Part shown: positions 35,502-47,922 of the stretch, piece by piece | Numbering within the stretch: position 1 is the stretch's first letter | Layout of the letters: every line of letters begins with the position of its first letter | NCBI RefSeq assembly: GCF_001424665.1 | Contig: NZ_LMQS01000004.1 | Span: 313,680 to 377,679 of the forward strand | Direction: 5' to 3' | DNA: 64,000 nt | Source of the DNA: Methylophilus sp. Leaf416 | GTDB lineage: Bacteria; Pseudomonadota; Gammaproteobacteria; Burkholderiales; Methylophilaceae | Notes under the pieces: model-generated | What the model saw: only the letters and a program-made list of their open reading frames with translations | What the model was told of the DNA's origin: nothing | Databases searched by the model: none | Made by a program: the position numbers and the translations under genes

Positions 35502-36122
35502 TTACTGACTTTTCTCTAAAGCTTGCAGCAATTTTACCAAGGCCTGGCCTCTGTGGCTCATTTTGCTTTTTACTTCCAGCGGTAATTCAGCCACGGTCTT
35601 GCGTGTTTCCAAATCCATAAACAAGGGGTCATAGCCAAACCCTTCTGACCCGCGAAACTCGCGCAAGATTTCACCCATCCAAACGCCATCGGCAATAATC
35701 GGTTGCGGATCGTTGGGCGACCGCACCAACACCAGCACACTATAAAAATAGGCACGGCGGTCACTTTCGCGCGACATCACTGTGAGCAGTTTATCGTTGT
35801 TGCGTTCATCCTGCGTCAACAGGCTACCTGATGGTTGTGGGCCTGCATAACGTGCGGAGATCACACCTGGTGCGCCATGCAGGGCATTCACGCATAAACC
35901 GGAATCATCAGCCAGTGCCGGTAAACCGGTATGCTGGCTGGCATGCCGTGCTTTGGCCAGGGCATTTTCAACAAAGGTTTCATACGGCTCCGGGCACTCC
36001 GGTACATTGAATTCAGATTGCGACACAATCTCAATATTCAAGGGGGACAGAACATGCGCGATTTCGCGGATTTTGTTTTTGTTGCCGGAGGCGATGACCA
36101 GTTTGTTGAACGCTAGTGCCAT
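35502..36122 (-). CDS. rdgB: RdgB/HAM1 non-canonical purine NTP pyrophosphatase
   Basis: 206 residues. SGNKNKIREI at the N-terminus, DDSGLCVNAL and GFGYDPLFM are the family signatures. It removes ITP, dITP and XTP. Its ATG lies one base after the rph stop, a very common rph-rdgB pair. Confidence 0.95.
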   Translation of the reverse strand: MALAFNKLVIASGNKNKIREIAHVLSPLNIEIVSQSEFNVPECPEPYETFVENALAKARHASQHTGLPALADDSGLCVNALHGAPGVISARYAGPQPSGSLLTQDERNNDKLLTVMSRESDRRAYFYSVLVLVRSPNDPQPIIADGVWMGEILREFRGSEGFGYDPLFMDLETRKTVAELPLEVKSKMSHRGQALVKLLQALEKSQ

Positions 36123-36123
36123 G

Positions 36124-36843
36124 TTATTTCGCTAATGCCTGTTGTTGCAGTTTAGATAATTCGGCAATGCCTTTGGCTGCCAGATCCAGCATTTCGTTCA
36201 TCGCGTCGCGGCTGAAAGGTTCGCCTTCGGCGGTGCCCTGAATTTCGACAAAACCGCCGCTGCCGGTCATGACTACATTCATGTCGGTATCACAGTCGGA
36301 GTCTTCAATATAATCCAGATCCAGCACCGGAATACCCTGGTAAACACCGACCGAAATCGCACCGACTGAATCTTTAATCGGGCTTTCAGTGAGCAAACCT
36401 TTTGCCAGCAAAGTGCTGACGGCATCGACCATCGCCACATAAGCGCCGGTGATGCTGGCTGTGCGCGTCCCGCCATCGGCCTGGATCACGTCACAGTCAA
36501 AATGGATGGTGCGCTCGCCCAGCTTTTGCATATCGATCACCGCGCGCAGACTGCGGCCGATCAGGCGCTGGATTTCCTGGGTGCGACCGGTTTGCTTGCC
36601 ACGGGCAGCTTCGCGATCCATACGTGAACCGGTAGAACGTGGCAGCATGCCGTATTCGGCAGTCACCCAGCCTTGGTTTTTGCCTTTGAGGAAGCCGGGC
36701 ACTTTTTCTTCGATACTGGCGGTGCAAATCACATGGGTATCGCCAAATTTGACCAAGACTGAGCCTTCGGCGTGTTTGGTGTAGCTGCGGATGATTTCTA
36801 TGCTGCGCAACTGGTCGTTGGCACGTTGGCTGGGTCTGGTCAT
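36124..36843 (-). CDS. rph: RNase PH
   Basis: 239 residues from the ATG at 36843, which begins the usual MTRPSQR start; the longer frame to 36867 adds 8 residues. It has [17 protein letters not shown] and [14 protein letters not shown]. It trims tRNA 3' ends with phosphate. It is followed immediately by rdgB. Confidence 0.95.
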
Positions 36844-36863
36844 TTCAAATTTTCCTGTCTGTT

Positions 36864-37793
36864 TCAAGTTTCTTGTTTTTTGAGATGCTGGCCGGTTCTG
36901 CCCAGCGCATCCTGTATATCGGCAATGGCCTTTTCAATTTCGTCATCGGTCAGATCAAGCGCATGCGGGTGCGGCATGGTCCCGGCATGGTTGAGCATGG
37001 TGGTCGTCCCGTCACCTGGTAAATCCAGGGTAGACACTGCCAGTGGGGCGGTATTTCTTTCACCCCACTGCAAGGCGATGGCACTCATGTTATCACCGAC
37101 GGTAATGCTGGCGGTATCGGCATCATCCAGCAGGCGCGTGACGCCATCCTGCATATTGGCGGCCAGCATATGCTGCGCCATGGTGATGGCAGGCACCGTA
37201 TTCCATACACCATCCGAGCATAGCAAAATGACATCGCCCTCGCTGAGCGGCATAGGGTCAGCCAGGTCAACTTGCGGCGGTTTGTCGCCACCCAGGCAAT
37301 TATAGATTTTGTTGCGATGCGGGTGTCGCTCAATCTGCTCGGCGGTGATCCTGCCTTCACGCAATAGCGATTGCACTACGGAGTGATCCTGGGTCTGGAA
37401 CTCTTCCAGGCCGTTGCGGTATAAATAGAGACGGGAATCGCCGACATGCGCACAAAACAGTTTGTTGTGCTGGATCAAGGCGACAACGATTGTCGTGCGC
37501 GGCGATTCGGATAACTTCTTGCGCACACGCACATTCTCAATCACGTCGTGCACCTGGCCGATCTGTTCACGAAGAAACTGCGCCGGCTGCGCGATGAGCG
37601 GGTCAGATTCGCGCTGGAAGGCTTCCACCATGGTTTTGACTGCAATTTCGGCCGCGACATCGCCATGCTGGTGACCACCCATTCCATCGGCCAACACCAT
37701 CAAAATGGAATGCCTGTGATAGGAGTATGCCAGCCGATCCTGGTTATACGGACGCGGCCCCTGGCGGCTGCCTTGCGCAATTGAAAACTTCAT
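36864..37793 (-). CDS. PP2C-type Ser/Thr phosphatase
   Basis: 309 residues from the ATG at 37793 (the longer frame to 37886 overlaps the kinase gene). Metal-binding motifs [28 protein letters not shown] and VGDNMSAI are intact. It sits 25 bases downstream of a Ser/Thr kinase gene, so the two are a likely kinase/phosphatase switch. The C-terminal 60 residues are extra and acidic/hydrophobic with no clear domain. Confidence 0.9.
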
Positions 37794-37818
37794 GGCATCA
37801 AGCGTTTCGTCAAATGTT

Positions 37819-38754
37819 TCATAGTGGTTTGGTGAGCACTTTAATAATTTTATCGACCAGGGAGCCACGGGCGTCATCTGCCACATGCACCTCTATCATT
37901 TTTTTCTGCAATGAAAACACACTTTGCGGCCGTTGCAGGTAATCAATATGCATACAGTCATCAATAATCGATAACAGTTTTTCTGAATAAATTTGCTTGC
38001 CTAGCTGTATCGCCGGCACCAGTGTATCTTCATTGAGGCGGATATTGGCGGCCAGCGGCGATGAACGTTGCAGGCAGGCATACATGCTGGCACCTATGCT
38101 GTAAATATCGCTCCACGGGCCCAAATGCTTGCGGTCTATGTATTGTTCCGGCGGTGCAAAACCCGGCGTGTAAGTCGGCGCCAGTGTCACCTCGGACAAG
38201 GCCTGGCGTGCCGAACCGAAGTCCAGCAACACCGGCGAGCCATCCAGTCGTATATAAATATTGGCCGGTTTGATATCCAGGTGCAGCAGTTTACGGCTAT
38301 GCACCTCACGCAAACCATTTAGCAATTCAACAAACATGCGGATCATGAAGTTTTCCGGCACCGGCTGCGTTAACGCCATGATGTAATCCTGCAGCGATTT
38401 GCCGCGCTCGTATTTCATCACCATATACACAGTGTTATTGGCGCGGAAGAAGTTTTTCACGCGCACAATATTCTTGTGCTCGATATTGGCCAGCGCCAGC
38501 CCTTCTTCAAAAAAGCACTTCATGCCATGTTTATACGCGGCTTCATTTTTACCGTTAGAACGGATATGCGTCTGGCCATCGCGCTTGGCCAGTGTCACCG
38601 GCATATACTCTTTGATGGCGACAGTATTTTTCTGTTTATCCTGTGCCAGATAGACGAAGCTGAACCCGCCCAGACTCAGCACCCGTGTAATGGTGTAGTC
38701 ATGCAACACGGTGCCTACTGGCAGTGCAATATCGATTTTATTGGCGAGCTTCAC
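37819..38754 (-). CDS. Ser/Thr protein kinase (Hanks type)
   Basis: 311 residues. Kinase subdomains seen: LSLGGFSFVYLA (P-loop), AIKEYMP (Lys), LLHLDIKPANIYI (catalytic Asp; Arg of HRD is Leu), LLDFGSARQ, and APPEQY. It has no membrane helix and no PASTA domain. It starts at a GTG (38754) since no upstream ATG exists. The partner phosphatase is next downstream. Its target is unknown; proximity to rph and rdgB is probably historical. Confidence 0.88.
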   Translation of the reverse strand: MKLANKIDIALPVGTVLHDYTITRVLSLGGFSFVYLAQDKQKNTVAIKEYMPVTLAKRDGQTHIRSNGKNEAAYKHGMKCFFEEGLALANIEHKNIVRVKNFFRANNTVYMVMKYERGKSLQDYIMALTQPVPENFMIRMFVELLNGLREVHSRKLLHLDIKPANIYIRLDGSPVLLDFGSARQALSEVTLAPTYTPGFAPPEQYIDRKHLGPWSDIYSIGASMYACLQRSSPLAANIRLNEDTLVPAIQLGKQIYSEKLLSIIDDCMHIDYLQRPQSVFSLQKKMIEVHVADDARGSLVDKIIKVLTKPL

Positions 38755-39888: not shown

Positions 39889-40410
39889 ATGCCTCTTCTC
39901 CGCTATGCTTTACCTTTCTGTGTCTATGTCTTGACCAGCGTATTTCCCCAACTTTCCGTTGCTGAAATTACCACCCTGACTATCCCGGACCAGGGCTGGG
40001 CGATTAGCTTCGACGCACCTCCGCTCCGGCCGGTCAGGGAAGCGGATTCAAACGATCACTATATGTATTATGGCAACGCCAATTTCTTCTCGGTAGTAAT
40101 CAATGTGGATACGCCAGCGTGCGATGGCGGTGACTCACATGAAAATGTACTGAACTGCTTTTGGACTAAGGCCAGTAAAGAACCGTTGATCAACCAGGCC
40201 AGCGTGCAAAAAAGCTGCAACAGCAATTACTGCAAACTCAGCTATGAGCTGGAAAACAGTTTTCAGGATAAAAATATCAAACAACGGCATGTCTATTTTC
40301 TATTTGCCTATCGCAACAAGTGGAACAATGTGCATATTTCTTATGTCAATCCCACCGAAGTGGATTTAAAGGTTCTGGAAAAATTTGAGCAATCGTTCAG
40401 CTACAAATAA
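39889..40410 (+). CDS. Secreted small protein of unknown function
   Basis: 173 residues with a signal peptide (MPLLRYALPFCVYVLTSVFP, cleaved near SVA|EI). The mature part has several Cys (PACDGG, NCFWT, SCNSNYCKL) that may pair. It lies between yicC and the Anbu operon. I recognise no family. Confidence 0.6.
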   Translation: MPLLRYALPFCVYVLTSVFPQLSVAEITTLTIPDQGWAISFDAPPLRPVREADSNDHYMYYGNANFFSVVINVDTPACDGGDSHENVLNCFWTKASKEPLINQASVQKSCNSNYCKLSYELENSFQDKNIKQRHVYFLFAYRNKWNNVHISYVNPTEVDLKVLEKFEQSFSYK

Positions 40411-40473
40411 GCACTTTCAAGACCTTTACGGATCCAACTTCTAAAATATCGCACCAATAACCGCATCCTCACA

Positions 40474-40490
40474 CGCACCTTAATGGTGCA
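40474..40490. promoter_or_regulatory. Near-consensus NtrC-binding site
   Basis: CGCACC-ttaat-GGTGCA is a perfect-spaced dyad matching the NtrC consensus TGCACC-N5-GGTGCA at all but one position. It is centred about 97 bases before the predicted sigma-54 start, the usual distance for an NtrC enhancer. Confidence 0.75.
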
Positions 40491-40551
40491 TTAAGTATGT
40501 TCTCGAAATCATGTTTTTACTTAACTCAATGATTTAAAACTATTTTTCTGG

Positions 40552-40568
40552 CTGGCACACACCTTGCT
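40552..40568 (+). promoter_or_regulatory. Sigma-54 promoter of the Anbu operon
   Basis: CTGGCACACACCTTGCT has the GG at -24 and GC at -12 with exactly ten bases between, matching TGGCACN5TTGCW fully. Transcription would begin near 40579, about 25 bases before the ATP-grasp ATG (40604, with AAGG at 40591). Confidence 0.85.
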
Positions 40569-40603
40569 GATATCAGATACAAATAATGTAAAGGTCATGG
40601 ACC

Positions 40604-42097
40604 ATGACGCAAACGGCCAAACAGTTTTTTGATGAAATGCAGGGGTATGGTGGCAATGTACGTGGCATCTACCAGGCTTACGACCGCTGGTTGAGTGCTG
40701 TACCTACACAGCAATTGGCGGCTAAACGGGCTGAAGCCGAAGTATTGTTCCGCCGTGTCGGCATTACTTTTAATGTCTACGGTGAAGAAGACGGAGCCGA
40801 GCGCCTGATTCCGTTTGACGTGATCCCGCGCATGATTTCTGCCAGTGAATGGGCGCATCTCTCCAAAGGTGCGGTGCAACGTGTCCGCGCCCTGAATATG
40901 TTCCTGCATGATATTTACCATGACCAGGAAATTATCAAGGCCGGCATTGTGCCGCACAGCATTTTGACCAACTCGCAATACCGCCCGGAAATGGTCGGTG
41001 TGAATGTGCCAAACCAGATTTATGCACATGTAGCCGGGATTGACCTGGTACGCACCAGCGAATCGCAGTTCTATGTACTGGAAGATAACCTGCGTACGCC
41101 GTCTGGCGTATCGTACATGCTGGAAGACCGCAAAATGATGATGCGGTTGTTCCCTGATTTATTCAAAAAATACCCGATTGCCCCTGTCGAACACTACCCG
41201 CATGTGCTGCTAAACAATTTGCGCTCTGTCGCGCAGACCGGGGTCACTGACCCGACCGTGGTATTACTTTCTCCTGGCGCCTACAACAGCGCCTACTTTG
41301 AACATGCCTTCCTCGCCCAGCAAATGGGTATTGAACTGGTGGAAGGCCAGGATTTGTTTGTCCGCAATAACGCCGTCTATATGCGCACCACGCAAGGCCC
41401 GCAACGGGTGGACGTGATTTACCGCCGCATCGACGACGACTACCTTGACCCTCTGGTATTCAAGCCCGACTCCATGCTGGGCGTGCCGGGTCTGCTCTCC
41501 GTCTACCGCAATGGTGGCGTCACATTGGCTAACGCCGTAGGTACCGGCGTGGCCGATGACAAGGCAACATATATTTATGTGCCGGAGATGATTAAATTTT
41601 ACCTGGGTGAGTCTCCCATCCTGCAGAACGTACCTACGTATCAACTCAGCAAGGAAGATGATCTGGCCTATGTGCTGGATCATCTGCCCGAGCTGGTCGT
41701 CAAGGAAGTGCAAGGCTCAGGCGGCTACGGCATGCTGGTCGGCCCGACTGCCAGTAAAAGCGAAATTGAAGAATTCAGGCTACGCATTGTTTCCAAGCCA
41801 TCAAACTACATTGCACAACCTACATTAGCTTTATCAACCTGCCCTACACTGGTTGACCAAGGAATTGCGCCACGCCATGTGGATCTGCGCCCATTTGTGC
41901 TGTCAGGCAAAACTGTCAGCGTGGTGCCCGGCGGATTGTCGCGCGTGGCCCTCAAGCAAGGCTCGTTAGTGGTCAATTCGTCACAAGGTGGCGGCACCAA
42001 GGATACCTGGGTGCTGGAGCGCGATGATGTGTATGCCGACCAAATGCAGTCGCAAATGGCTGCTCAACAGTTATCTCAAGAGGCCGTGATATGTTAA
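40604..42097 (+). CDS. Circularly permuted ATP-grasp protein of the Anbu system
   Basis: 497 residues (DUF404/DUF407 type). VFRRVGITFNVYGEED, LRTPSGVSYMLEDRKMMM, and VKEVQGSGGYGMLVGP, with RHVDLRPFVLSG near the end, are typical of permuted ATP-grasp enzymes in this cluster, predicted to make peptide bonds. First gene of the Anbu operon and overlaps the next gene by seven bases. Confidence 0.92.
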   Translation: MTQTAKQFFDEMQGYGGNVRGIYQAYDRWLSAVPTQQLAAKRAEAEVLFRRVGITFNVYGEEDGAERLIPFDVIPRMISASEWAHLSKGAVQRVRALNMFLHDIYHDQEIIKAGIVPHSILTNSQYRPEMVGVNVPNQIYAHVAGIDLVRTSESQFYVLEDNLRTPSGVSYMLEDRKMMMRLFPDLFKKYPIAPVEHYPHVLLNNLRSVAQTGVTDPTVVLLSPGAYNSAYFEHAFLAQQMGIELVEGQDLFVRNNAVYMRTTQGPQRVDVIYRRIDDDYLDPLVFKPDSMLGVPGLLSVYRNGGVTLANAVGTGVADDKATYIYVPEMIKFYLGESPILQNVPTYQLSKEDDLAYVLDHLPELVVKEVQGSGGYGMLVGPTASKSEIEEFRLRIVSKPSNYIAQPTLALSTCPTLVDQGIAPRHVDLRPFVLSGKTVSVVPGGLSRVALKQGSLVVNSSQGGGTKDTWVLERDDVYADQMQSQMAAQQLSQEAVIC

Positions 42098-43035
42098 GCC
42101 GCACCGCAGATCATTTATATTGGATGGCGCGTTATATCGAGCGGGCCGAAAACGTGGCGCGCGTGCTGGATGTGACTTACGGTATGTCGCTGCTACCTTC
42201 CGATGCCAGCAACGATGAAGAATTATGGGACAGCGTGCTGGAAATCGCCGGCGTCAGGGATATTTACGAGGCGAGTTATAAAGATATCAGCGCTGCACAA
42301 GTGATTCAACACCTGGTGATGGATAGCCAAAATCCTTCCAGCATTTACAGCTCGTTGCGCAGTGCCCGCGAAAATGCGCGCGCCGTGCGGGTAGCGATGA
42401 CAGTAGAAACCTGGGAAAACATGAACACGCTGTGGCTGGAGTTTGACCAGTTTATCAAACAGGACCTGACGCAATCCGGGTTGAGCGAGTTTTGCGAATG
42501 GGTAAAGAGCCGCTCCCACCTGTTCCGCGGCGTGTGTTTCGGCACCATGTTGCGCGACGAGGCGTTCAGCTTTGTCCGGCTGGGCACTTTTATGGAGCGT
42601 GCCGACAACACTGCCCGCCTGCTGGATGTGAAATACGAGTTTTTAATCCCCATGCAGGAAGCCAATGAGGGCGCGGTGGATTATTACGAATGGAGCGCTG
42701 TGTTGCGCTCAGTCGCTGCTTTCCAGGCTTACCAGAAGGTTTACCGCGATGCGATTGAGCCAACCAAAGTCTCTGAATTATTAATACTGCGCGAGGATAT
42801 GCCGCGCTCATTACATGCCTGCTACGCCGAGATTATGCCGATTTTGCGGCAGGTTGCCGGCAGCCGGCAAACCGAGGCTGAGCGCCTGGCCGGGCAAATG
42901 CATGCCAAACTGCATTACGGTCGCATGCTGGATATCGTCAAAGATGGTGTACATCACTTTCTGGATGAATTTATCCTGGCTAACCGCAAACTGGGTGAAG
43001 AGATTCAGCGCAACTTCTTAAGTGCAACTGCATGA
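42091..43035 (+). CDS. Alpha-E domain protein (DUF403)
   Basis: 314 residues, almost wholly helical and beginning MLSRTADHLYWMARYIERAEN, the hallmark of alpha-E proteins. These always travel with permuted ATP-grasp enzymes and probably form the peptide-synthesis partner. It overlaps the ATP-grasp gene and is 104 bases ahead of the transglutaminase gene. Confidence 0.92.
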   Translation: MLSRTADHLYWMARYIERAENVARVLDVTYGMSLLPSDASNDEELWDSVLEIAGVRDIYEASYKDISAAQVIQHLVMDSQNPSSIYSSLRSARENARAVRVAMTVETWENMNTLWLEFDQFIKQDLTQSGLSEFCEWVKSRSHLFRGVCFGTMLRDEAFSFVRLGTFMERADNTARLLDVKYEFLIPMQEANEGAVDYYEWSAVLRSVAAFQAYQKVYRDAIEPTKVSELLILREDMPRSLHACYAEIMPILRQVAGSRQTEAERLAGQMHAKLHYGRMLDIVKDGVHHFLDEFILANRKLGEEIQRNFLSATA

Positions 43036-43139
43036 TCAACACTATGATGGCTTTAAGCCGGATTGTTCAGCTTGATAGCGAAATAGGTATATCGTTATTG
43101 TGCAGACACGATTGCGGCGCTTTTTAAGCCAAGGCTAGT

Positions 43140-43976
43140 ATGCTGCTGAATATTGAGCATCACACCCAGTATATCTATAGCGAAGCGGTGCAATACACCA
43201 TTCAGCAACTGCGCCTGACGCCACGCGATGGCCTGGGTCAGCACGTCAAACATTGGGACATTAAAGTCAACGGTCAGTGCCACGCGTTTGAAGATACTTA
43301 TGGCAATCTTACGCATACCCTGGTGATCGACCAGCCGCATACAGAATTAATGATCTCGGTGGCAGGCGAAGTGGAAACCGGCGTTTTAGGTTTGGCCACC
43401 CACCAGCCGTTGCCGGTGGAACTGTATCTGCGGGAGTCACCCCTGACCCAGGCAGATGCTGCGATGACGGACTTTGCGAAACAGTATGCACAAGCACCTG
43501 TGACTGAGTTGATGTATGCATTGCGTGACAAAATGCATTACATAAAAGGGGTCACCCAGGTAAATACACCAGCAGCCGAAGCTTTCCGGCTGGGTAAAGG
43601 CGTCTGCCAGGACCACGCACATGCCTTTCTCGGTTGTTGCCGCAGCCTGGGCATGCCGGCACGCTATGTCAGCGGCTACCTGTTTACCGAAGATGGCAGC
43701 CTGATGCAAACTCATGCCTGGGTCGAGGTCTGGCAGAATGAACAATGGCTGGGGCTGGATGTTTCAAATGGCTTATTAACCAATGAAACTCACGTACGGC
43801 TGGCTGTCGGCCTGGATTACCGTAGTGCGAGCCCGGTGACTGGTACCCGCATCGGCGGCGGCAAGGAAGGCATGTCGAGCATGGTCAGCGTTAATCAGCT
43901 GGCAACGGTCACGCATGAACAGCGTAAACGCCAGACTGACCAGTTGTATCAACAGGCTCTCTCCGCGCAACAATAG
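43140..43976 (+). CDS. Transglutaminase-like protein of the Anbu system
   Basis: 278 residues. The Cys-His-Asp catalytic set is visible: GKGVCQDHAHAFLGCCR (Cys), THAWVEVW (His), then an Asp in LGLDVSN. The N-terminal part (about 1-110) is a bacterial transglutaminase-like domain. It probably processes or ligates peptides made by the ATP-grasp/alpha-E pair. Confidence 0.92.
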   Translation: MLLNIEHHTQYIYSEAVQYTIQQLRLTPRDGLGQHVKHWDIKVNGQCHAFEDTYGNLTHTLVIDQPHTELMISVAGEVETGVLGLATHQPLPVELYLRESPLTQADAAMTDFAKQYAQAPVTELMYALRDKMHYIKGVTQVNTPAAEAFRLGKGVCQDHAHAFLGCCRSLGMPARYVSGYLFTEDGSLMQTHAWVEVWQNEQWLGLDVSNGLLTNETHVRLAVGLDYRSASPVTGTRIGGGKEGMSSMVSVNQLATVTHEQRKRQTDQLYQQALSAQQ

Positions 43977-44081
43977 ACCCCATCCCGCCCATATTGATGG
44001 CCAACTCGCAACAGTGGAGTCGTGCAGACCGCCCGTGCTATCATGTCACTTTAGCGACTCCGCTTTTTCTTCCATACCGTT

Positions 44082-44822
44082 ATGACATATTGTGTAGGTA
44101 TCCTGCTGGAACAAGGGCTGGTGCTCGCGTCTGACACACGCACCAATGCGGGTGTTGACCAGGTAGCCATAGCCCCCAAAACGCATGTTTTCGAGCAAAC
44201 GGGTGAGCGTGTGATTGTGCTACTCACGGCGGGCAATCTGGCGATTACCCAATCTGTTGTGAATTTATTGCGTGAACAGCTTAAGGAACCCGAGCCGGAA
44301 ACCGCAAATTTATACAGCGTGCATTCCATGTTTGAAGCCGCCAGTGTGGTGGGCGCAGCCATGCGCAGCATTTATCATCGCGATGGCGAAACGCTGAAGG
44401 AACATGGTATCGATTTCACTGCCAGCATTCTGGTGGCCGGGCAAATCAAGGGTGAAAAACCACGCCTGTTCAATGTCTATGCGGCGGGCAATTTTATCGA
44501 GGCCACCTCGGATACGCCCTATTTGCAGATTGGCGAAACCAAATATGGCAAGCCGATTATTGACCGCGTCATCAACCACAAAACCGATATGATGGAAGCG
44601 GTGAAATGTGTGCTGATTTCATTTGATTCCACTATCCGCAGCAATATCTCTGTTGCCATGCCTATTGATTTGATGATTTACCGTACTGACACGCTGACCG
44701 CGGATTGCCGTCAACGCCTGACCGAACGTGACCCGTATTACGCCAGCGTACACAAAGGCTGGGGCGAAGGCTTGAGAGCAGTATTCTCTTCCCTGCCTAA
44801 TCCAGAATGGGGCTCACAATGA
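44082..44822 (+). CDS. Anbu (bacterial proteasome homolog) protease subunit
   Basis: 246 residues. It begins MTYCVGI, so removal of Met exposes a Thr nucleophile, then VLASDTRTNAGVD, the Ntn-hydrolase core of Anbu/HslV-type proteins. It needs no ATPase partner and forms rings in studied relatives. Its stop overlaps the gmk ATG (ATGA), so guanylate kinase is translationally coupled to it. Confidence 0.9.
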   Translation: MTYCVGILLEQGLVLASDTRTNAGVDQVAIAPKTHVFEQTGERVIVLLTAGNLAITQSVVNLLREQLKEPEPETANLYSVHSMFEAASVVGAAMRSIYHRDGETLKEHGIDFTASILVAGQIKGEKPRLFNVYAAGNFIEATSDTPYLQIGETKYGKPIIDRVINHKTDMMEAVKCVLISFDSTIRSNISVAMPIDLMIYRTDTLTADCRQRLTERDPYYASVHKGWGEGLRAVFSSLPNPEWGSQ

Positions 44823-45430
44823 GTCATGGCCATCTATTTGTCATTTCTGCAGCATCAGGTGCCGGTAAAACCAGCCTGGTGCGTGCCATGCTGGCGCAAG
44901 ATCCCTTACTGAAACTCTCAGTCTCGCACACCACGCGCGAACCGCGTCCGGGGGAAGAAGACGGTATCCACTACCATTTTGTCCCTGAATCGGCATTTAT
45001 GGAGATTCTGGATAAGGGTGGCTTTCTTGAAAGTGCGCATGTACACAGCGCGCGCTATGGCACTGCGCAAACCGAAGTTGAAAGTGCCTTGGCCGAGGGG
45101 CGTGACGTTATTCTGGAAATTGACTGGCAAGGGGCACAACAGATCCGCAACCTGTTTCCGCAAGTGACTTCGATTTTTATCTTGCCACCTTCGATTGAAG
45201 CACTGTCACATCGCCTGAATGCACGCGGCCAGGATAGCGAGGCCGTGATTGCCAAGCGTTTGGCGGCTGCGCGTGAGGAGATGCGTCACGTGCATGAGTT
45301 TGATTATGTTACAATAAATGACAATTTTGACGTGGCTCTACAGGATTTAATGGCTATCGTGCGTGCCAAGCGCTTGCAGCTTGACCGCCAGGTTGCCTGC
45401 CACGCGTCACTGATTCAATTACTCACCTGA
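44819..45430 (+). CDS. gmk: Guanylate kinase
   Basis: 203 residues from the ATG at 44819; the longer frame to 44807 is inside the Anbu gene. P-loop ISAASGAGKTSLVR, SVSHTTREPRPGEEDG and SAHVHSARYGT are intact. It phosphorylates GMP. It starts within the Anbu stop codon, so it may be read from the sigma-54 promoter as well as from its own. Confidence 0.95.
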   Translation: MSHGHLFVISAASGAGKTSLVRAMLAQDPLLKLSVSHTTREPRPGEEDGIHYHFVPESAFMEILDKGGFLESAHVHSARYGTAQTEVESALAEGRDVILEIDWQGAQQIRNLFPQVTSIFILPPSIEALSHRLNARGQDSEAVIAKRLAAAREEMRHVHEFDYVTINDNFDVALQDLMAIVRAKRLQLDRQVACHASLIQLLT

Positions 45431-45483: not shown

Positions 45484-45699
45484 ATGGCTCGTATTACCGT
45501 CGATGATTGCTTGGACAATATCCCTAATCGTTTTCAATTAACCCTGGTAGCCGCTTACCGCGCCCGACAGATCGCTAACGGTTCCGACCCGCTGGTTGCC
45601 GGTTACGCGCAAAAAGACAAGCCAACCGTGATTGCCCTGCGTGAAATTGCCGCAGGCAAAATCGGCGTTGAACTTCTGGAAAAAAAAGGGCAGGCTTAA
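45484..45699 (+). CDS. rpoZ: RNA polymerase omega subunit
   Basis: 71 residues, [19 protein letters not shown] start and [12 protein letters not shown], typical of omega. It lies between gmk and spoT. Confidence 0.95.
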
Positions 45700-45705
45700 G
45701 CAGTC

Positions 45706-47922
45706 ATGCCGCATACCCAAGGTGAACATTCCTATCGCAAGTCTAAATCACCTTTAGAAGCGGCAGACTTACTCCCGGCTGACCGTGAGGATTCCCCCCT
45801 CACGCAGCTGATCCGGAAATACCTTAACGAAGAAGAAGTACAGCTGGTCTGGCAGGCCTATCGCTATGCCGAACAAGCGCATGCCGGTCAAACCCGTAAA
45901 ACCGGCGAACCTTACATCACCCACCCTATTTCTGTCGCCTGCATCCTGGCGAAGCTGCACCTCGATTTGCCCACCCTGCTGGCTGCTCTTCTGCACGACG
46001 TGGTGGAAGATACCGAGGTAAATAGTGCGGAAATCGCAGAAAAATTTGGCAAGCAAGTCGCCGACCTCGTCGATGGCCTGACCAAGCTGGATAAAGTCGA
46101 ACTGCAAACCGCGACTCAGGCCCAGGCAGAGAATTTCCGCAAAATGTTGCTGGCCATGAGCCAGGATGTGCGCGTCATCCTGGTTAAACTGGCAGACCGC
46201 CTGCATAACATGCAAACCATGGACGCCATGCGTCCGGAAAAGCAAAAACGCATTGCGCGCGAGACACTGGATATTTATGCGCCGATTGCCAATCGACTGG
46301 GCCTGAACCCCATCTTTCATGAACTGGAAGATCTTAGCCTCAAGTATTTATATCCCAACCGCTACCGCGTGATTGATAAGGCCATCCGCACCGCGCGCGG
46401 CAACCGCAAGGAAGTGATTGGCAAGATTCTGGAATCCATTCAGAATCAGCTTAAACAATATCAACTTGAATTTAATGTAGAAGGTCGCGAGAAGCACCTT
46501 TACAGCATTTACAAGAAGATGAGTGAAAAATCGATGAAATTGTCGCAAATTGGTGACATTTACGGTTTTCGCGTGGTTGTAAAAGACACTGCCGCCTGCT
46601 ATCTGGCATTGGGCGCATTACATGCTTTGTACAAGCCCATTCCAGGCCGTTTTAAAGACTATATTGCCATTCCCAAAGCCAATGGCTACCAATCTTTGCA
46701 TACCACGCTGTTTGGCCCGTTCGGCACGCCGATAGAAGTACAGATCCGCAGCCAGGAAATGCACAATATCGCCGATGCGGGCGTGGCCGCGCACTGGTTG
46801 TACAAAACGACCGATGCACACCTGACCAAGCTGCAGCAGCAAACCCACCAGTGGCTGCAACGGCTGGTGGAAATCCAGACCGAAAGTGACGACAGCCATG
46901 AGTTCCTGGAGAACTTCAAGGTGGATCTTTTCCCGGATGAAGTGTATATATTCACGCCTAAAGGCAACATTATGGCCTTGCCACGCGGTTCTACCGCGGT
47001 GGATTTTGCTTACGCCGTGCACTCTGATGTCGGCAATAGTTGCGTGGCGGTTAAAATCAATAACGAGCTGGCGCCATTACGGACTGAAATGCGCAATGGT
47101 GACCATGTGGAAATCATCACCGCGCCACTGGCTAAACCCAACCCGGCCTGGCTGAATTATGTGGTCACCGGCAAAGCACGTTCGCATATCCGCCATTACC
47201 TGAAAACGGTGAAAGTCGAAGAATCTGCCCAGCTTGGTGAGCGTATGCTGAATGTCGCTTTGCGCGCCATGCATATCCAGCCGGGTGATATTTCGGACAA
47301 GCAATGGCAAAAAGTCATGAATGACTACGGCGCCAAAACCAGGCAAATGATTCTGACCGATATCGGGCTGGGCAAACGTAACAGCCTGATGGTTGCGCAC
47401 CAGTTGCTGGCGCATCCGGCGGACACTGAAGATAAAACAAGCAAGACGCTGGATACCATTACCATCCGTGGTTCAGAAGGCATGGCAGTGCAATTTGCCC
47501 CCTGCTGCCGGCCGATTCCGGGCGACCCTATCCTGGGCTTTATCAATAAAGACAAAGGGCTGGTCATTCATACCCATGATTGCCAGGCAATCCGCAAATT
47601 CAAGCTGGATCCGGAAAAATGGCTGGATGTGGAATGGGATGCCGACCCGAAAAAACTGTTCAGCGTCAACCTGCGTATTTCTGTGGTCGACGAACGCGGT
47701 ATGCTGGCCAAAATTGCAGCCACCATTGCCAATGCCGATGCCAACATTGATAACGTCAGTGTCGAATCCAGCGATGGCAGCCAGTATTCCAATGTGAACT
47801 TTACCTTACAGGTGCACAACCGCGTACATCTGGCGACCCTGATCCGCAACCTTCGCAAGATCCAGCAAGTGGTGCGCATTAACCGGGTCAAGGGCAACCA
47901 GCTAGAACAACGTATCCAGTAA
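45706..47922 (+). CDS. spoT: Bifunctional (p)ppGpp synthetase/hydrolase (SpoT type)
   Basis: 738 residues. The HD hydrolase (HPISVACILAKLHLD...LLHDVVEDT), synthetase (GFRVVVKDTAACYLALGALH), TGS (VYIFTPKGNIMALPRG) and ACT domain at the end are all seen. The intact HDVVEDT favours SpoT over the RelA branch. It follows rpoZ by six bases. Confidence 0.93.
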   Translation: MPHTQGEHSYRKSKSPLEAADLLPADREDSPLTQLIRKYLNEEEVQLVWQAYRYAEQAHAGQTRKTGEPYITHPISVACILAKLHLDLPTLLAALLHDVVEDTEVNSAEIAEKFGKQVADLVDGLTKLDKVELQTATQAQAENFRKMLLAMSQDVRVILVKLADRLHNMQTMDAMRPEKQKRIARETLDIYAPIANRLGLNPIFHELEDLSLKYLYPNRYRVIDKAIRTARGNRKEVIGKILESIQNQLKQYQLEFNVEGREKHLYSIYKKMSEKSMKLSQIGDIYGFRVVVKDTAACYLALGALHALYKPIPGRFKDYIAIPKANGYQSLHTTLFGPFGTPIEVQIRSQEMHNIADAGVAAHWLYKTTDAHLTKLQQQTHQWLQRLVEIQTESDDSHEFLENFKVDLFPDEVYIFTPKGNIMALPRGSTAVDFAYAVHSDVGNSCVAVKINNELAPLRTEMRNGDHVEIITAPLAKPNPAWLNYVVTGKARSHIRHYLKTVKVEESAQLGERMLNVALRAMHIQPGDISDKQWQKVMNDYGAKTRQMILTDIGLGKRNSLMVAHQLLAHPADTEDKTSKTLDTITIRGSEGMAVQFAPCCRPIPGDPILGFINKDKGLVIHTHDCQAIRKFKLDPEKWLDVEWDADPKKLFSVNLRISVVDERGMLAKIAATIANADANIDNVSVESSDGSQYSNVNFTLQVHNRVHLATLIRNLRKIQQVVRINRVKGNQLEQRIQ

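Follow-up and report, generated by a model that had tools for sequence, protein, structure and literature searches.

Gene Content of the Locus

The subject of this analysis is a set of genes that includes anbu, encoding a proteasome-like Ntn-hydrolase, in a 64,000-nucleotide stretch (the window) of the 2.94 Mb genome of Methylophilus sp. Leaf416. The genes all lie on the forward strand. A circularly permuted (CP) ATP-grasp ligase of 497 aa (40604..42097; Pfam PF14403, 552.7 bits) comes first, and its stop is overlapped by the start of the gene for a 314-aa Alpha-E protein (42091..43035; PF04168, 327.7 bits). These are followed by tgl, which encodes a transglutaminase-like cysteine hydrolase (43140..43976; PF01841 and PF08379), and by anbu itself (44082..44822), the product of which matches the Anbu entries 5loy (E 4.9e-92) and 5nyw (E 2.5e-82) in the PDB. 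The anbu stop shares an ATGA with the start codon of gmk, for guanylate kinase (44819..45430; TIGR03263, 235.8 bits), after which come rpoZ, for the omega subunit of RNA polymerase (45484..45699; TIGR00690 over its cut-off), and spoT, for a bifunctional RelA/SpoT-family ppGpp enzyme (45706..47922; TIGR00691 over its cut-off at 807.8 bits; HD_4 and RelA_SpoT domains). A preliminary description, made from the DNA letters, had called an ATP-grasp/alpha-E/transglutaminase/Anbu gene set at this position, and the Pfam and PDB sequence matches bear the calls out. The order of the genes, CP-ATP-grasp, Alpha-E, transglutaminase, and Anbu, is that of the Anbu operon.

A Predicted NtrC/Sigma-54 Promoter Precedes the Ligase Gene

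Upstream of the ATP-grasp gene is a predicted sigma-54 promoter, P1. Its -24/-12 element, TGGCACACACCTTGCT (40553..40568, forward strand), is an exact match, with GG and GC at the fixed spacing. An NtrC dyad, CGCACCTTAATGGTGCA (40474..40490; CGCACC-TTAAT-GGTGCA), is centered about 97 nt upstream of the start expected near 40579, a distance computed from the coordinates for a predicted start. Between the dyad and the sigma-54 element lies an IHF-like site, TAACTCAATGATT (40522..40534), and 24 bp upstream of the main dyad there is a degraded second NtrC-like site (40450..40466) that retains a GCACCA half-site. The properly spaced sigma-54 promoter and NtrC dyad of the preliminary description are thus both in place, and the pair is non-random and conserved.

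Neither motif counts for much alone because the genome counts are close to those of the controls: exact matches to the sigma-54 pattern number 7 genome-wide vs 6 for the backward control, and the perfect dyad is found in 2 places vs 6 for its control. Within the window, matches with one mismatch fall below the shuffle means for both the sigma-54 element (4 vs 6.07) and the dyad (1 vs 3.34). The two motifs were scored jointly at 40-180 nt spacing, with matrices built from consensus sequences; for the null, the same 460 bp were shuffled 20,000 times (first order). The NtrC consensus is TGCACCA-N3-TGGTGCA. The window pair scores 36.0, a value reached by 0 of the 20,000 shuffles (99% point 17.8, maximum 27.9); elsewhere in the 64-kb window, every pair scores below 22. 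Genome-wide, the combined pattern is found in 2 places vs 0 for the control. The combination of dyad and sigma-54 element is not due to chance. The second genomic place with both motifs at this spacing (L098, G000:C3:264820-264926) lies in a region that holds a 438-aa open reading frame.

When 18 Methylophilus promoters were aligned, the dyad core GCAC-N7-GTGC was invariant in all 18, and the inner dyad pair was seen to co-vary, with C-G replaced by T-A in two of the promoters (L074 and L075). At the second NtrC-like site, 13 of the 18 promoters agree with at least 9 of the 14 consensus positions; the window has only 6 of 14. The IHF-like site differs by at most one mismatch from YAANNNNTTGATW in 16 of the 18 and always stands 30-31 nt before the -24 element; in shuffles the mean is 3.6 and the maximum 9 of 18, a comparison to be read with the 18 promoters being close relatives.

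The pair (score >17.8) is present upstream of 35 of the 39 ATP-grasp orthologues with at least 60% identity, alignments of fewer than 300 residues having been excluded, and the start-to-start spacing of dyad and sigma-54 element is 77-79 nt in 28 of these 35. None of nine more distant ATP-grasp homologues or paralogues carries it. Outside the genus, the pair passes in 44 of 76 named loci vs 1.3% of 760 shuffles. The 76 are what remains of 80 loci after four with less than 150 nt upstream were dropped; the set shares genomes with the other one (L210 = G020, L211 = G001, and L213 = G016, for example), and L209 is not in the analysis. Most of the misses are Oxalobacteraceae-type loci, which have TGGCAC-N5-TTGAT at about -40 and no recognizable dyad. 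In a class-wide draw, a close ATP-grasp occurs in 83 of 276 genomes. Among 80 upstream regions from this draw (80 of the 89 listed matches besides the window's own), the pair exceeds the 1% null in 16, and a sigma-54 element scoring at least 13 is present in 29, vs 2% in shuffles. Given 44 of 76 named loci and 16 of 80 class-wide, the predicted NtrC/sigma-54 control is typical of the family and order and patchy beyond.

anbu Has a Candidate Promoter of Its Own

A second candidate promoter, P2, is marked by an extended -10 element, TGCTATCAT (44036..44044, forward strand), before anbu that is conserved in gmk-linked anbu loci. An extended -10 of the form TGNTATNAT lies upstream of anbu in 28 of 29 gmk-linked loci vs 4 of 72 others (22 of 2020 shuffles). 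With identical upstream sequences removed, the counts are 24 of 25 and 3 of 69, where L075 is scored as not gmk-linked though gmk stands at its edge; another locus, L219, ends before the expected position of gmk. A terminator-like stem, GTGGAGTCG / CGACTCCGC, with a T-run surrounds P2 (44014..44068, forward strand). It was picked out by eye, in the window only, from minimum-free-energy folds of 13 tgl-anbu gaps, and it was missed by a consensus terminator scan with a loop limit of 8. On the question of a single transcript, the window thus offers gaps of about 105 nt in the gene set together with the extended -10 before anbu and the terminator-like stem.

Relatives in which the genes have come apart are informative. 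In six genomes (G023, G025, G028, G029, G031, and G038), anbu is remote from the ATP-grasp gene: separated by over 9 kb, encoded on the opposite strand, or placed on a different contig. The NtrC/sigma-54 pair precedes none of the six relocated anbu genes and all six ATP-grasp genes of the same genomes. In three other relatives (L072, L073, and L075; genomes G016, G001, and G011), tgl and anbu are parted by opposite-strand genes. One genome, G017, has no ATP-grasp or anbu match; inspected by eye, its yicC-gmk interval retains the extended -10, damaged first codons of anbu, and a short 3' anbu remnant before gmk.

The preliminary description had predicted nitrogen control for the Anbu system as a whole. 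For the ATP-grasp, alpha-E, and transglutaminase genes this is strongly supported by the conservation of P1, the presence of NtrC and RpoN genes, and the published ntrC-mutant and nitrogen-limitation data from relatives. As a statement on anbu it seems too broad, in view of the gene's own extended -10, the absence of the pair from the relocated copies, and the opposite-strand genes in three relatives. On the comparative evidence, the predicted nitrogen control is a property of the ATP-grasp/alpha-E/transglutaminase unit rather than of Anbu as such.

Proteins of the Set and Neighboring Genes

The ATP-grasp protein is close to a solved relative, 3n6x, a putative glutathionylspermidine synthase (E 1.1e-261). 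The transglutaminase-like protein matches 3isr (E 1.9e-10), and residues Cys156, His192, and Asp207 were located as its probable catalytic triad. Anbu has Thr1, Asp17, and Lys32, in agreement with the active-site residues Thr1, Asp17, and Lys32/33 named in PMC6376114. For Alpha-E, a sequence comparison with the PDB at E 0.1 gave no match; its AlphaFold2 model is confident and all-helical (mean pLDDT 88.2) and gives no Foldseek match at E 0.001. By this model, Alpha-E appears to be a fold with no clear solved relative. A ligase and two hydrolases may make, trim, or recycle an amide-linked product, in line with earlier authors (PMC5666114, PMC6376114); a nitrogen-storage peptide is one possibility, at the level of a guess. 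PMC6376114 describes the Anbu set as one with no known substrate or role. The present results narrow the question: the product of the ligase is to be sought in ammonium-starved cells, and Anbu is not to be assumed to be its dedicated peptidase.

The gene set varies in at least one Methylophilus relative: L071 (G010) has ATP-grasp, alpha-E, and anbu, with no transglutaminase match between them. A second system is encoded in the same genome outside the window (L058/L207, G000:C4, about 208-215 kb) and comprises a 1095-aa transglutaminase + DUF2126 amidoligase, an 846-aa ATP-grasp/Alpha-E fusion, and a 297-aa transglutaminase-like protein; no NtrC/sigma-54 pair was found at this system. Between yicC and the NtrC promoter of the window, there is a gene for a small protein of 173 aa (39889-40410, forward strand), which is signal-peptide-like by eye and has no match in Pfam or NCBIfam. 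Of the Methylophilus loci compared, L066 alone shares this gene with the window; judged by eye, G017 has it as well. Farther upstream, genes for a PP2C-type phosphatase and a Ser/Thr-type protein kinase are overlapping neighbors (36864-38754, reverse strand) beside genes at 35502-36867.

Regulators and Published Nitrogen Control

The genome encodes RpoN as well as NtrC, the latter at 720 bits vs a cut-off of 558.6; the ntrC model has 23 matches in the genome, one of them over the cut-off. In this genome, the glnK-amtB operon also carries a full sigma-54 element, of the same sequence class as P1, with its best dyad-like match about 265 nt further upstream.

Homologous genes have been followed in other organisms. 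PP_2685-PP_2688 of Pseudomonas putida are reported to rise in nitrogen limitation, which is attributed to NtrB/NtrC (PMC7801951, PMC3325844, PMC8050072). In one P. putida wild-type data set, anbu changed 1.12-fold and its three partner genes rose 11- to 15-fold. In a Burkholderia cenocepacia ntrC mutant, the homologous cluster, I35_5080-I35_5083, falls 6.0- to 9.4-fold (-8.2, -9.4, -9.4, and -6.0) and is counted among the common sigma-54/NtrC targets (PMC5491218). Nitrogen starvation is also mentioned in two Anbu structure papers (PMC5666114, PMC6376114). Because control by nitrogen and NtrC is already published for P. putida and B. cenocepacia, our finding is a well-supported extension of control known in relatives. 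The new part is the proposed two-promoter arrangement, with P1 for the ligase unit and P2 for the anbu-gmk unit; the regulation itself is mostly known.

Two Probable Promoters, Two Probable Units

We regard it as highly probable that the ligase unit is driven from P1, a sigma-54 promoter activated by NtrC with the help of IHF, and that anbu-gmk-rpoZ-spoT is served by a housekeeping promoter, P2. Observed here were the elements and how well they are conserved, the order of the genes, and the presence of NtrC and RpoN; nitrogen induction and its loss in an ntrC mutant are published for relatives. When nitrogen is short, phosphorylated NtrC would bind the dyad at about -97, and IHF, if it indeed binds the IHF-like site, would assist by bending the DNA. 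NtrC would then open the complex of RNA polymerase and sigma-54 at TGGCAC-N5-TTGCT, transcription beginning at the predicted start, and the ATP-grasp ligase, alpha-E, and transglutaminase-like enzyme would be made. The fourth gene, anbu, would in this lineage belong mainly to the second unit, in which P2, through its extended -10 at 44036, would transcribe anbu-gmk-rpoZ-spoT at all times. P1 transcripts may add to the P2 output.

Several observations weigh against this reading. Each motif alone stands at about chance level genome-wide. The pair is missing from 4 of the 39 orthologues: L027 has just 84 nt upstream, L052 has a sigma-54 element without a dyad, and L044 and L045 are without both. 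Moreover, the relatives are not independent, with about half of the 39 orthologues coming from one genus. Because P2 has no TTGACA-type -35, the argument for it is that of the extended -10. In two other P. putida studies, anbu itself was induced by nitrogen limitation (11.1 and 4.44). Finally, a P. putida rpoN mutant is reported still to induce PP_2686-2688 (14.2-, 16.0-, and 19.6-fold) and also urtA (11.1-fold; PMC7801951 Table 2), a result at odds with a strict requirement for sigma-54.

Nitrogen starvation might also be coupled to the stringent response, with P1 transcripts reading through anbu into gmk-rpoZ-spoT. The gene set lies between yicC and gmk in every one of the 16 Methylophilus loci that extend across this part of the chromosome, and Methylotenera-type relatives have the same yicC - set - anbu - gmk order; anbu and gmk overlap, the terminator scan from tgl to gmk found none, and NtrC is reported to activate relA in Escherichia coli (PMC4066584). 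However, in the window the tgl-anbu gap holds the terminator-like stem and T-run, 3 of the 16 loci carry opposite-strand genes that interrupt the route, and the gene order may reflect only the insertion site of the set. Such coupling is conceivable but, in our view, rather unlikely. The fact that yicC and gmk are direct neighbors in G015, G019, G022, G046, and G050 points to insertion of the set. A fuller proposal, which strikes us as unlikely, is that the set was inserted into a yicC-gmk-rpoZ-spoT operon, that P1 read-through raises gmk, omega, and the ppGpp enzyme in nitrogen starvation, and that Anbu is a constitutive housekeeping hydrolase. If true, the nitrogen and stringent responses would have been wired together a second time, independently. 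The gmk-rpoZ-spoT link makes the nitrogen-to-ppGpp route directly testable in a harmless methylotroph. A small literature search gave no paper on the anbu-gmk-rpoZ-spoT arrangement, which is weak evidence of absence.

Alternatively, the genes from ATP-grasp to anbu could form one nitrogen-controlled operon in which the extended -10 is minor or irrelevant. In the window they share a strand and the gaps are short, many relatives also have anbu behind the rest of the set, and the two P. putida studies with induced anbu agree with this. We nevertheless consider it quite improbable in view of the restriction of the extended -10 largely to gmk-linked loci, its retention in G017 after the loss of anbu, the opposite-strand genes between tgl and anbu in three relatives, the six relocated anbu genes without the pair, and the nearly flat anbu beside its strongly induced partners in P. 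putida. It is very unlikely that an enhancer-binding protein other than NtrC acts at the dyad: the genome has many sigma-54 activators, as the 23 ntrC-model matches indicate, but the dyad fits the NtrC consensus, perfectly so in L011, and expression of the B. cenocepacia homologues drops in the ntrC mutant.

Comparison with Known Systems

The arrangement inferred here, P1 for the ligase unit and P2 for anbu-gmk-rpoZ-spoT, can be set beside four described systems. P. putida PP_2685-PP_2688 has the same four gene families and the same induction by nitrogen limitation via NtrB/NtrC; it differs in that the available portions of the reports describe no gmk link in its Anbu operon, and in that one data set has anbu almost flat and the set still induced in the rpoN mutant. 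The B. cenocepacia cluster shares the DUF404/407, DUF403, and transglutaminase genes and their standing as sigma-54 and NtrC targets, whereas the available part of the source lists for it a second, large transglutaminase protein and no proteasome-like gene (PMC5491218). In E. coli, a ppGpp gene, relA, is likewise under NtrC/sigma-54 control, but relA has a dedicated promoter, and here there would be at most putative read-through from an upstream operon (PMC4066584). The published Anbu operon has the same ATP-grasp, alpha-E, transglutaminase, Anbu order (PMC5666114, PMC6376114); in the accessible text of these papers, anbu is treated as a member of the operon, whereas here anbu also falls into a unit with gmk, rpoZ, and spoT, one that has a putative promoter.

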